From positions 3,038,001 to 3,102,000 of the forward strand of contig NZ_CP123923.1 in assembly GCF_030450125.1 (NCBI RefSeq): DNA of 64,000 bases. Reading direction: 5' to 3'. The position numbers and the translations under genes are program-made. The DNA is from Streptomyces sp. WP-1. GTDB taxonomy: Bacteria > Actinomycetota > Actinomycetes > Streptomycetales > Streptomycetaceae. Below the pieces are notes generated by a model. It saw only the letters and a program-made list of their open reading frames with translations, did not search any database and had not been told where the DNA came from. Positions 49,570 to 54,017 of this stretch are shown piece by piece (positions within the stretch are counted from its first letter, which is position 1; each line of letters begins with the position of its first letter).

Positions 49570-50322
49570 TCACCGCACCGGCAGGTGATACGCCACCCGG
49601 TACCGGTCCGCCGGAATGACGACGTCCGCGGTCTCCACCGGGCGCCCGGAGGCGTAGTAGGTGCGCTGCACGACCAGGACGACATGGCCGGGGACGCCCC
49701 CGAGGAGATGCAGTTCCTCGGCGAGGCCGGGGCGCGCGCCGACCTCCTCGGTGACGTTGTCCACGATCACGTCGATGGCGCGCATGCGCTCGACCACGCC
49801 CATCCCGCCGAGCGGCCCCTCCTCGGGCAGCATCACCGGGCTTCGGCCGGTGACGGCGAGGGGCTCCCAGGAGGTGGAGAGCATCATCGGCTCACCGGCC
49901 TCGCGGAACAGGTACTTGGTGCGCATGACCCGCTCGCCGATCTCGATCCCGAGCCGCTCGGCGATCGCGGCACCGGCCTCGGCCTGCCGGCTGCTGGACT
50001 CCCAGGTGCCGCGCACCGCGGCGTCGGCCTGCTCCTGCCGGAAGGGGGTGGCGCCGCCGCTGGGGCGGTAGCCGGAGCGGGACACCCGGCGCGGCACGGG
50101 CCGTTCGCGCACGTACGTCCCCGAGCCGGAGCGGCCCTCCACCAGGCCCTCGGCCATCAGGACCTTGCGGGCCTCCAGGGCGACGGTGTCCGAGACGCCG
50201 TACTCCTCGCGGATGCGGGCCTGCGAGGGGAGCCGGGTGTGGGGCGGCAGTGAACCGTCGACGATCTTCTTGCGGAGATCACCCGCGACACGCAGATACG
50301 CCGGCTGCTCACCGAAAGTCAC
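49570..50322 (-). CDS. GntR-family regulator, HutC subfamily (UTRA ligand domain)
   Basis: 250 residues from a GTG at 50322 (VTFGEQPAYLRVAGDLRKK), with GGGAG nine bases upstream. N-terminal winged helix (residues 8-75): LPSQARIREEYGVSDTVALEARKVLMAEGLVE and GSGTYV. C-terminal UTRA domain (about 100-245) with RTKYLFREAGEPMMLSTSW and VVQRTYYASGRPVE. Ligand unknown; HutC members often bind sugars or small metabolites. A perfect 17-bp palindrome 77 bp upstream of its start is a likely operator, so it probably autoregulates and may control the divergent serpin gene. Confidence 0.88.
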   Translation of the reverse strand: MTFGEQPAYLRVAGDLRKKIVDGSLPPHTRLPSQARIREEYGVSDTVALEARKVLMAEGLVEGRSGSGTYVRERPVPRRVSRSGYRPSGGATPFRQEQADAAVRGTWESSSRQAEAGAAIAERLGIEIGERVMRTKYLFREAGEPMMLSTSWEPLAVTGRSPVMLPEEGPLGGMGVVERMRAIDVIVDNVTEEVGARPGLAEELHLLGGVPGHVVLVVQRTYYASGRPVETADVVIPADRYRVAYHLPVR

Positions 50323-50415: not shown

Positions 50416-50588
50416 ACACCTGACCGGGCAAGCCCCCACCCAGCACTTTCTCCCCCACCCGCGCCCCCCTTCACACCTGCCGGGCGCCCCGGACAACTCC
50501 GGCCGCCCGAACGGCAGTCCGGGAACACCGGTACCGTGCCTCTTACGACTTGTCGCAGGTAAGCGGGACACAGGGGGCGGAATTGAAG

Positions 50589-51815
50589 GTGGAGAACCGG
50601 GTCGACGGCGCCGTCGTACGCACGGTGAACGGACTCACCGCGCGCTGGGGCGCCACCGCGCGGGGCGGCACGGTGTTCTCCGCGGCCGGTGTCTGGCCCC
50701 TGCTGGCCCTCCTCGCGGACGGCGCGGCGGGCCCCGCCCGGCAGGAGCTGACCGAGGTACTGGGCGTGCCCGCGGAGCAAGCTGCCGCCACCGCACGGGA
50801 GTTGCTCGCGGCCCTGGACTCGGTGTCGGGCCTGGACGCGGCGCTCGGCCTGTGGACGCAACAGGAACTGCCGCTGCGCGAGGAGTGGCTGGCCAAGCTG
50901 CCGGCGGCCGCGCACGGCTCGTTCGGGGAGGATCTCGTCACCGCGCAGGAACGGCTGGACCGCTGGGCCGCCGAGCGCACCGGCGGCCTGGTCGAGCGGA
51001 TGCCGGTGGCGCTGAACCGGCAGACCCGGATGGTGCTGGCGGGCGCGCTCGCCCTGCACACCACCTGGCGCCAGCCCTTCACCGAGCAGCCGCTCACCCC
51101 GGCGGCGGGCCCCTGGCAGGGCCGCACCCTGCGCGGCCTGCACCGGCGGAGCGTGCGCCCGGACCGGGTCGGCGTGACCGGCACCCCGGACGGCTTCGTC
51201 ACCGCGCTGACGGTCCCCGGCGACAACGGCATCGACGTCCATCTCGTCCTCGGCGAGGAGCGCATGACGCCGGGTCAGGTCATCGCCGCGGGCGTGGCCG
51301 TGGTGGAACGCGCGCTCCCGCTCACACCGGGCGGCGCCCTGCCGTACGGCGAGGTCGGCCCCGGACTGCGGGTGGAACGCGAGCAGGCCGTCACGCCGGA
51401 ACCGACCTCCCTGGACGTACGGACGGTTGCCTACGAGGTCCGCGCGGACCACGATCTGCTCGCCCAGCCCGACCTCTTCGGCCTCCACACCGCGACCGAC
51501 CCCCGCTACGGCCACTTCCCCGGCATCAGCGCCCACCCCCTGGCCGTCTCGGAGGCCCGCCAGTCGGCGGTGACCCGCTTCGGCGCCCTGGGCTTCCGCG
51601 CGGCCACGGTGACGGCCATGGCCGCGGCACCCGGCGGCGCCCCGCCCCAGCACCGCTACGAGACCACCGTCGTCCACGCCACCTTCGACCGCCCCTTCGC
51701 CTTCCTCGCCGTCGACCGCGACTCCCGCCTGATCCTGACCTCCGGCTGGATGACCGACCCCTCCCCCTACCCGGCCCCGGGGTACGCGGGCAGCGCGGGC
51801 CGCCCGGGTGTGTGA
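50589..51815 (+). CDS. Serpin-family protein without signal peptide
   Basis: 408 residues from GTG 50589 (VENRVDGAVVRTVNGLTARW); TTG 50583 and TTG 50550 are in-frame alternatives. GGGGGCGG at 50573-50580 supports one of the two later starts. The whole length fits the serpin fold: GTVFSAAGVWPLLALLADGA (helix B), NRQTRMVLAGALALHTTWRQPF (strand 3A region), and the C-terminal signature FDRPFAFLAVDRDSRLILTSGW. The segment before the signature (AATVTAMAAAPGGAPPQ) is the reactive-loop position; Ala/Gly/Thr hinge residues suggest it could be inhibitory. No secretion signal is seen, so it would act inside the cell. Bacterial serpins are scarce. Confidence 0.78.
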   Translation: MENRVDGAVVRTVNGLTARWGATARGGTVFSAAGVWPLLALLADGAAGPARQELTEVLGVPAEQAAATARELLAALDSVSGLDAALGLWTQQELPLREEWLAKLPAAAHGSFGEDLVTAQERLDRWAAERTGGLVERMPVALNRQTRMVLAGALALHTTWRQPFTEQPLTPAAGPWQGRTLRGLHRRSVRPDRVGVTGTPDGFVTALTVPGDNGIDVHLVLGEERMTPGQVIAAGVAVVERALPLTPGGALPYGEVGPGLRVEREQAVTPEPTSLDVRTVAYEVRADHDLLAQPDLFGLHTATDPRYGHFPGISAHPLAVSEARQSAVTRFGALGFRAATVTAMAAAPGGAPPQHRYETTVVHATFDRPFAFLAVDRDSRLILTSGWMTDPSPYPAPGYAGSAGRPGV

Positions 51816-51842
51816 TGCCTACGCCCCCCCGCCCGACCACAC

Positions 51843-51882
51843 GCCGAAGGGGCCGGACTCCCCTGAGCCCGGCCCCTTCGGC
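51843..51882 (+). terminator. Hairpin terminator of the serpin gene
   Basis: A perfect 14-bp stem (51843-51856 with 51869-51882, 12-base loop) starts 27 bp after the stop at 51815. An imperfect relative of this sequence lies at about 52850-52879 behind ychF, as part of the duplication described for 51901-51947. Confidence 0.8.
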
Positions 51883-51900
51883 ACAGCACGTCCGCCACTC

Positions 51901-51947
51901 CAGCGACGCGGCGTCACTTCATCCGCTCAGACGTTGAAGCGGAACTC
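51901..51947. repeat. Direct repeat, copy 1: detached copy of the ychF 3' end
   Basis: 47 bp matching 52903-52949 at 46 positions, in the same orientation. It holds the last 19-21 bp of a ychF coding end, including the stop, plus 26-28 bp of flank. Homology stops sharply at 51947. Weaker similarity extends leftwards into the hairpin region. It flanks vapBC on the left. Confidence 0.9.
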
Positions 51948-51998
51948 GGCGCCGAGAACACTACCCAACGCCTGTGGTGACCTGTGGGCGTTCCCGGC

Positions 51999-52415
51999 TC
52001 AGTCGGCGGTACCCGGCTCCACAACCCACTCGGCTTGCAGCCCGCTCACCGAGGCAATCATGTCGAAGTCTCCGTCGTAGTGCAGGACCGTGGCCCGATG
52101 CCGCTCGGCGGTTGCCGCGATGAGGACGTCGGCCATCGACAGTGCCCGGTGAAAGCCGGCGTTCAGGGCCAAAGCCTGGATCTCTAGCGCCCGCTCGAAC
52201 TCTTCGTCATTGCAGGGCAGGTAGTCGAATCCACGGAGCAGGGTACGCAGTCGCAGCGCCTCAGGCTTTCCGCGCGCCGAGTACAGAACCTCGTACTCGG
52301 TCGGGGCGCACACCGCCAGGAGCCCATCGCGGTCCAGCACATCCAGCCGCGCCCGCACCGCTGGTCCACCCCGGCGGGCCAGCGCGGACTTGTCGATGAG
52401 GTAGCGCCCCTTCAC
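51999..52415 (-). CDS. vapC: VapC-type PIN-domain toxin
   Basis: 138 residues from ATG 52415 (MKGRYLIDKSALARR). PIN-domain RNase with acidic active site: Asp8, Glu42 (EYEVLYSAR), Asp96 (MADVLIAATA) and Asp114/116 (HYDGDFDMIA). It should cleave RNA when free of antitoxin. The start overlaps the antitoxin stop by four bases. The pair lies in a 955-bp segment between direct repeats copied from the ychF 3' end, suggesting acquisition as a cassette. Confidence 0.9.
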   Translation of the reverse strand: MKGRYLIDKSALARRGGPAVRARLDVLDRDGLLAVCAPTEYEVLYSARGKPEALRLRTLLRGFDYLPCNDEEFERALEIQALALNAGFHRALSMADVLIAATAERHRATVLHYDGDFDMIASVSGLQAEWVVEPGTAD

Positions 52416-52663
52416 GCCGCCGAGGCCCCGCCTTCGCGCTTCAGAGAGCCGTCCGGATTCCGCGGCCCCGTCTGCGAACGGATCTCCGCGAACACGTCCT
52501 CGAACTCGCCGTCATCCATGGCATCGAACAGCTCCCGGCGCAGCCGCAGTTTCACCCCCTCCTCCATGGCCGCCCGCACCGCGGCGGCCTTGGTCCTCAC
52601 GCCGTACACCCGCATCGCCTGCTCGACGATCTCCTCGTCCAGATCGATCACAGTCCTGGCCAT
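52412..52663 (-). CDS. vapB: VapB-type antitoxin
   Basis: 83 residues from ATG 52663 (MARTVIDLDEEIVEQAMRVY). The N-terminal ribbon-helix-helix-like part (TVIDLDEEIVEQAMRVYGVRTKA) should bind DNA and dimerise. The C-terminal half (DDGEFEDVFAEIRSQTG) should wrap the toxin. It precedes and overlaps vapC, the standard order. AACGATATC/AACGACATC repeats just upstream are candidate operator sites for autoregulation by the VapBC complex. Confidence 0.88.
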   Translation of the reverse strand: MARTVIDLDEEIVEQAMRVYGVRTKAAAVRAAMEEGVKLRLRRELFDAMDDGEFEDVFAEIRSQTGPRNPDGSLKREGGASAA

Positions 52664-52694
52664 CAGTCATCCCTCCACCACCCGACGACCCAAT

Positions 52695-52726
52695 AACGAT
52701 ATCAATTGAGCTTCGTAAACGACATC
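52695..52726 (-). promoter_or_regulatory. Putative VapBC operator/promoter patch
   Basis: Two related 9-bp words, AACGATATC (52695-52703) and AACGACATC (52718-52726), 23 bp apart in an A/T-rich stretch 32 bp upstream of vapB. It is the most A/T-rich sequence in the neighbourhood and a likely promoter with toxin-antitoxin binding sites. Confidence 0.45.
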
Positions 52727-52902
52727 GATACCCGGAGATACGTCGAGGACGCTTCCGCTGCGGGCGGTGAAGCGGTCCGGTCGAGCGGGATTCGTCCTGC
52801 TGTGCTGATCACTTTGCTCCCGCCGGTCGCTCTGGGTGCGTAAAACCCAAGGGGCCCGACTCCACAGAGCCGAGCCCCTCCTGAACTGCATGTTTGCCAG
52901 AT

Positions 52903-52928
52903 CAGCGACGTGGCGTCACTTCATCCGC

Positions 52929-52949
<21 letters not shown>
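52903..52949. repeat. Direct repeat, copy 2: authentic ychF 3' end
   Basis: The 47-bp partner of 51901-51947, spanning the last 21 bp of ychF (stop at 52929-52931) and 26 bp downstream. The one mismatch is C/T at the ninth base. An imperfect stem at 52850-52879 nearby may terminate ychF. Confidence 0.9.

Positions 52950-54017
<1,068 letters not shown>

Follow-up and report, generated by a model that had tools for sequence, protein, structure and literature searches.

A CIME-like vapBC cassette probably left by site-specific insertion at the 3′ end of ychF in Streptomyces

Introduction

Integron arrays consist of small cassettes, each with a recombination site, and such arrays can be rich in toxin-antitoxin pairs. 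In Streptomyces, the site-specific accretion of pathogenicity islands was reportedly described by Zhang and Loria in 2017. CIMEs are integrase-less stretches of DNA between an attL and an attR site; in these elements both sites have been kept and the integration and transfer genes have been lost, and the tandem accretion of ICEs and IMEs at one site is also known (PMC5704250). In pneumococcus, satellite prophages are reported upstream of ychF and uvrA, which is a different place from the 3′ end. A thin literature check yielded no description of ychF as an integration site in Streptomyces or of arrays of 1-kb toxin-antitoxin cassettes.

In this study, we compare with these systems a vapBC operon that lies between two direct copies of the ychF 3′ end in Streptomyces sp. 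WP-1. The window is the whole stretch of DNA that was analysed (64,000 nucleotides), and the features discussed below are as follows.

49570..50322, minus strand: GntR/UTRA regulator, which marks the far side of the hotspot in many relatives (domain match)
50550..51815, plus strand: serpin gene beside the distal copy (PF00079)
51841..51882, minus strand: terminator-like hairpin, copy 1 (predicted −42.6 kcal/mol)
51844..51947, minus strand: repeat copy 1, detached core with class A arm and hairpin (84% to copy 2)
51927..51947, minus strand: distal putative att core, copy 1 (genome search and alignment)
51948..51998, minus strand: non-canonical left junction, short and with the arm motif at −26 missing (comparison with other cassettes)
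51999..52415, minus strand: vapC toxin, PIN domain (PF01850, E 1.5e-13)
52412..52663, minus strand: vapB antitoxin (PF09957, E 1.1e-10)
52664..52736, minus strand: upstream region of vapB with GATATC-like repeats, of which about −44 to −73 is common to other vapBC copies
52846..52949, minus strand: repeat copy 2, core with class A right arm and hairpin (84% to copy 1 over 104 nt)
52849..52880, minus strand: terminator-like hairpin after ychF, copy 2 (predicted −26.9 kcal/mol)
52929..52949, minus strand: ychF-proximal putative att core, copy 2, the last 7 codons including the stop, GAGTTCCGCTTCAACGTCTGA (alignment)
52929..54017, minus strand: ychF (redox-regulated ATPase YchF), 3′ end intact (TIGR00092, 439.6 bits against a cut-off of 279.2)

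Results

Two copies of the ychF 3′ end flank vapBC

The original prediction described a direct match of 46 out of 47 positions between 51901-51947 and 52903-52949, with an abrupt end of the homology at 51947. The count is exact, and the repeat is in fact longer, extending over 104 nt without gaps at 84% (51844-51947 versus 52846-52949). The abrupt end is borne out by the alignment of the copies, in which the likeness stops at 51947 toward the ychF-coding side. Each 104-nt copy contains the final seven codons of ychF, with the stop counted among them, together with the 3′ flank and a strong predicted hairpin; neither hairpin is listed by a simple terminator scan, which demands a T-run. At up to three mismatches, these two are the only copies in the 7.6-Mb genome of Streptomyces sp. 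WP-1.

The stretch between the repeats measures 955 bp, and the only genes recognised there are vapB and vapC, which encode a VapB antitoxin and a PIN-domain toxin and overlap by 4 bp. The nearest solved chain to the window VapC is VapC21 (5sv2, E 2.9e-27), and the NCBIfam VapC model gives it 50 bits, under the cut-off of 80. This stretch had been predicted to hold the two genes, an A/T-rich promoter and no integrase. The genes and the absence of an integrase were confirmed, and the GC content upstream of vapB (52664-52845) is indeed lower than that of the window (58.8% vs. 71.2%), but a simple scan detected no sigma-70-like promoter there.

Among the compared loci, no empty version of the window site with the serpin next door was found. 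A serpin relative occurs in eight of 58 relatives' regions downstream of ychF, and the 400 bp that precede it contain no core, only weak words with about 3-4 mismatches.

Second cores downstream of ychF

A search of 392 genomes of the genus with the 21-nt ychF end, allowing up to two mismatches, produced matches in 252. At least two cores, always on one strand, are present in 18 of these 252 (table count, the WP-1 genome included). The second core lies within 20 kb in 15 of the 18; it is about 27 kb away in G269 and about 159 kb away in G340, and in G313 the cores are on separate contigs. Another 60 regions were drawn from the matches approximately in the order of the list, with genomes already included and several short contigs omitted and G035 added; multi-copy sites are under-counted in this sample because most multi-copy genomes were among those omitted. 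The 58 regions that could be oriented, with 1.02 Mb downstream of ychF, contain 13 extra cores on the ychF strand and none on the opposite strand, and these occur in 10 of the 58. A chance origin of the extra cores was rejected on account of this strand bias and of three sets of dinucleotide shuffles, which gave none.

The second cores downstream of ychF, on the same strand as the gene, carry varied cargo, including toxin-antitoxin pairs, restriction genes and abortive-infection genes. The suspicion that this junction is an insertion hotspot, at which other strains would hold different cargo between the two copies, is thus supported by many genomes. A relative of the GntR regulator was counted by us in 37 of the 58 regions (one on the opposite strand and one partial), at distances of 0.9 kb to about 18 kb after ychF; therefore, the ychF-gntR interval is highly variable.

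In 17 genomes of other genera, of which 0.5 to 3.2 kb after ychF was viewed, a second core is present in two (L290 and L298). These slightly different, ychF-end-like cores, TTCCGGTTCACCGT, lie on the same strand at +1342 (L290) and +959 (L298) from ychF and come from another family of the order, and the ychF site may therefore be used more widely.

The original prediction also suggested looking for strains with a single uninterrupted copy. In G224, ychF is followed by one core and then directly by the flank, which represents an empty site. In G012, the same two flanks enclose an occupied site, with 3,065 bp between two cores. The flanks of this pair are alike at 87.6% over 1,093 bp and at 88.9% over 3,633 bp, the two blocks overlap by 19 bp, and the word common to both sides measures about 15-19 bp. 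Because the base after GTTCCGCTTCAACGT goes with the right-hand flank, we read the exchange point in this pair as lying within GTTCCGCTTCAACGT.

Integrases at the ychF site

In several genomes, ychF is closely followed by IntB, a tyrosine integrase of 372 aa encoded on the opposite strand. Searching the genome contigs with IntB provided 79 loci from the best 80 of 100 matches, and all counts of IntB relatives refer to these best 79 loci. Among the relatives at 69% or above, partial ones included, a core lies 116-166 bp past the matched end in 29 of 36, and 25 of 36 are directly at ychF; at 40-45%, one of 43 has any core in its locus. Seven of the 36 have no core at the expected place. Two of these seven have a core and ychF about 7.4 kb off, one has a core 3.5 kb off, and the remaining four have no core in the available DNA, which in L218 ends 64 bp after the match. 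A full IntB with no adjoining core is present in L046. Beyond Streptomyces, kin of IntB occur in Kitasatospora (two, at ychF) and in Mangrovactinospora (69%, without a core).

A second family, Int36/41, is 54% alike within the pair and 29% to IntB, and it sits at the other end of the element. In L036 and L037, the integrase ends 104-105 bp short of the distal core, and in L055 the distance from its end to a core is 149 bp. The member in G184 (L041) lies near ychF instead of at the distal end, and no core is present within 250 bp of the relative in L038. The element of G043 (12 kb) contains Int36, an HTH_17 protein, an AAA ATPase and a type ISP restriction-modification enzyme, and the integrase of the G080 element is 96% identical to this Int36. 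The HTH_17 protein is a candidate excisionase. Large proteins were observed in elements at the ychF site: the one at L036:4909-9876 is a type ISP restriction-modification enzyme according to Pfam, and the one at L037:5245-10152 resembles it at its start.

The WP-1 genome has PF00589 matches at seven places. No resident ychF-type integrase was found among the three compared, L163, L165 and L166, which are at most 41% to the ychF-type integrases; L164 looks identical to L163, and L167, L168 and L169 fall outside the comparison. The places G000:C1:110789 and G000:C1:1685754 (L163 and L164) are segments of a few kb with an integrase-domain gene, which look identical by their predicted proteins and lie in opposite orientation. 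A phage origin of the cassette was considered and rejected, as a search for close relatives of VapC found none in viral contigs. Four IntB relatives, at 38-45%, are present in those contigs.

Arms of the cores

The right arms of 224 distinct cores include three large classes, with 43 cores at ychF and 13 elsewhere in class B, 17 and 21 in class A, and 15 and 10 in class C; both window cores are counted as elsewhere, though copy 2 is at ychF, and the share of classes B and C is inflated, as many of the loci were collected through matches to IntB or to F2, a gene pair treated below. The arm is unlike any other in 73 of the 224. For 74 of the 85 detached cores other than that of the window, the resemblance to ychF breaks off within 5 bp on the upstream side, and the remaining 11 keep TGGAG or TCGAG.

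A 10-bp arm motif, CGCAGGTCAG, was counted with up to one mismatch in 37 of 71 left arms (1 of 71 and 3 of 71 in controls) and, among right arms, in 45 of the 94 that are at ychF and in 24 of the 71 that are elsewhere (3 of 165 and 6 of 165 in controls); these frequencies are somewhat favoured, as discovery and testing of the motif used one set of sites and as related cassettes do not count as independent. Its positions are fixed relative to the core, mostly at −26, +24 (reverse) and +41/42. In the window, copy 2 has a word resembling the motif, with two mismatches, near the canonical position, and copy 1 has no right-arm motif, as a native attB side might be. When folded, the arms of both window copies, of class B in L123 and of class C in L151 form strong predicted hairpins.

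Small cassettes and arrays

The 46 inter-core intervals, the window included, comprise two below 0.2 kb, 15 of 0.5-1.3 kb, 14 of 1.3-4 kb and 15 above 4 kb. Small intervals often hold toxin-antitoxin pairs, namely RelE/ParE-type toxins with Phd, YefM with YoeB, VapBC, and an unnamed pair, F2. For 150 of the 206 array ORFs, the 25 of 79 Pfam families listed include Phd/YefM antitoxins (11), ParE-type toxins (9), YoeB (5) and integrases (5), with no conjugation family among them. PADLOC models for AbiE, JetD, AbiU and a methyltransferase have one member each among the 25 of 53 listed. The genes of the arrays lie in both orientations, and vapBC keeps its conserved upstream region. One compact model array was observed at 3.6-7.9 kb of L044 (G266), where five cores occur in about 4.2 kb together with three toxin-antitoxin pairs, one of them a 65% VapBC that lies in the opposite orientation. 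Streptomyces sp. ISL-66 (L230) has an IntB gene as well as several small inter-core intervals.

The F2 unit, a cassette of 1.01 kb, occupies an inner position in L126 and lies at ychF in L065 and L151, and the match extends from core to core over about 1,020-1,030 bp at 91-92%. Among the best 30 F2 loci, a core is present in 25 and, by our own count, lies about 130-160 bp from the toxin gene in 23. Neither Pfam nor NCBIfam nor the PDB gave a credible match for the F2 toxin, whose residues we read as PIN-like. Compared with ychF, F2 is more alike in one of six pairs only, and IntB is more alike in six of six. Furthermore, 31 of 82 distinct distal sites, counted after the removal of overlapping loci of one genome, continue from the core onward for at least 250 bp like the ychF-proximal site of another locus.

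Relatives of the vapBC operon

A core lies within about 1.5 kb in eight of the ten closest VapC relatives (91% or above) and in two of 19 at 63-69%, where one of the two (L031) is a lone match that looks spurious; a VapC match at 83% in G259 has no locus and is outside both groups. With up to two mismatches, cores are found on both sides within about 2 kb in three of the ten close relatives (L064, L065 and L070), on one side only in five and on neither side in two, which counts against the predicted small passenger mobilised in trans. Where an upstream core is in view, its distance to vapB varies from about 239 to 1,319 bp. The left junction of the window is approximately 88 bp shorter than that of L064 and has no −26 motif. 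Close vapBC copies (93% VapC) with no ychF core in view were observed in L063 and L068, and the operon may therefore also travel otherwise.

The vapBC DNA of the window is 91.1-92.6% alike to that of five carriers, and ychF is 86.5-87.0% alike in the three comparable ones. The closest ychF proteins among those fetched (about 97%) are from G003, G106 and G365, in which no VapC match was found except a weak one in G106 (E 1.5e-8). Because the likeness of vapBC exceeds that of ychF and the relatives closest in ychF have no good VapC match, these comparisons point to a horizontal gain of vapBC by the window lineage. The vapBC copies of L065 and L066 are less alike (89.0%) than their ychF genes (92.9%).

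Discussion

With its core GTTCCGCTTCAACGT, the ychF 3′ end appears to be an attachment site shared by tyrosine integrases of at least two distantly related families and by many small cassettes that have no integrase. We consider it likely that the vapBC unit of the window is an att-flanked, integrase-less, CIME-like cassette left by site-specific insertion at this gene end. An insertion that rebuilds the end of ychF was already put forward in the original prediction, and it is supported by the integrases at the site, the pair of empty and occupied sites, and the varied cargo. According to the mechanism that we propose, the ychF 3′ end would serve as the attB of several Streptomyces tyrosine integrases, and recombination inside GTTCCGCTTCAACGT would land an incoming circle between ychF and its former end. 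Because the circle would supply its own last ychF codons and its own hairpin, ychF would stay whole. The old end would be left as a detached copy on the far side, and repeated insertions would generate arrays. In the window, copy 2 would represent attL and copy 1 attR, with one integrase-less vapBC unit between them. This unit may have entered by the ychF-site route, moved in trans by the integrase of another element, and toxin addiction may help it to persist. By analogy with the G224/G012 pair, copy 1 is probably the former native ychF end; its identity is what we infer, because both copies are of class A.

Genome comparison offers a common core with adjoining integrases, a site seen both empty and occupied, a cassette that takes different places in arrays, and a likeness to the vapBC carriers that is greater in vapBC than in ychF, all of which are read from sequence. 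We infer that integrases of the IntB and Int36 types act on the ychF core. The movement of a small passenger in trans is plausible but unproven. At present, the window cassette is probably immobile, because its distal junction has no usual left arm and no close ychF-type integrase is present among those compared from its own genome.

The strongest rival holds that a larger integrase-bearing element at ychF lost by deletion everything apart from vapBC, so that no 1-kb unit ever moved. In nine loci (L035, L037, L039, L057, L061, L121, L135, L140 and L160), a core is accompanied by a partial match to IntB or Int36, and element decay therefore seems common. Moreover, the G184 element has a distant VapC (38%) near a full integrase, and the left junction of the window looks deleted. 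However, compact units with the same ends recur across genomes, as indicated by the core-to-core match of F2 and its regular spacing in 23 of 30 loci, and the intervals of 0.5-1.3 kb make up 15 of the 46. Such a decay remnant appears possible but rather unlikely to us.

A second rival, named in outline in the original prediction, is that the ychF 3′ end was duplicated in tandem together with its terminator and that vapBC later inserted between the copies; it would agree with two copies that share an arm class and are 84% alike over 104 nt, hairpin included. It is now disfavoured, and we regard it as very improbable, for three reasons. In the window, as at 74 of 85 other detached cores, the resemblance to ychF stops no more than 5 bp from the core; the G224/G012 pair shows insertion; and the right-arm classes are found at inner positions as well as at ychF. 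About as improbable is a route with no integrase, in which imported DNA entered by homologous recombination between the ends of ychF and the sequence downstream. Such a route would suit a ychF end that is much alike across species and the vapBC copies at other loci, but it must contend with a common word of only about 15-19 bp in the empty-site pair and with integrases and a fixed-distance arm motif that mark the sites.

Site-specific insertion at the ychF 3′ end, which we prefer for the window, may be part of a broader process, on which we are evenly divided. In Streptomyces and related actinobacteria, the ychF 3′ end would anchor an integron-like capture. Each toxin-antitoxin or defence cassette, about 1 kb in length, would have a core, an arm motif and a hairpin of its own. 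Tyrosine integrases of at least two distantly related families, encoded by larger elements at the same site, would excise and reintegrate these cassettes in trans, resulting in shuffled arrays. If cassettes of about 1 kb do move in trans, this would be a case of cassette shuffling outside integrons. The analysis points to a site-specific hotspot in a genus that is widely used for natural products, supplies a candidate att core and arm motif, and offers a reason for the pile-up of toxin-antitoxin and defence genes behind a conserved GTPase gene.

Compared with type II toxin-antitoxin systems of the VapBC kind, the window pair has the same PIN toxin, VapB antitoxin, overlapping operon and repeat-bearing upstream region, and it differs in setting alone. 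The Streptomyces pathogenicity islands are reportedly large and have another site and cargo, whereas the ychF cassettes are of 1 kb. In contrast to integrons, the cassette genes at the ychF site lie in both orientations and the anchor is the end of a housekeeping gene; the sites consist of a 15-19 bp core in direct repeat, accompanied by arm motifs. Three site-associated integrases score far under the integron cut-offs (TIGR02249, at most 73.5 against 265), and the window cassette contains no integrase.

Like a CIME, the window unit has two direct cores that, judging from relatives, would act as attL and attR, and in its 955 bp vapB and vapC alone are recognised, with no integrase or transfer genes. 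As to an origin by decay, partial integrase genes are present at the site, yet compact cassettes are present too. With the CIMEs and the ICE/IME accretion described in PMC5704250, the ychF site shares tandem units on one site, distantly related integrases of similar specificity, and the end of the target gene within the att site. It differs in that the target is Streptomyces ychF, the units are often of about 1 kb with one toxin-antitoxin pair, and the folded arms carry hairpins. The principle of insertion at a gene 3′ end followed by accretion is known, and the ychF site and the cassette-array style look new within a thin literature check.
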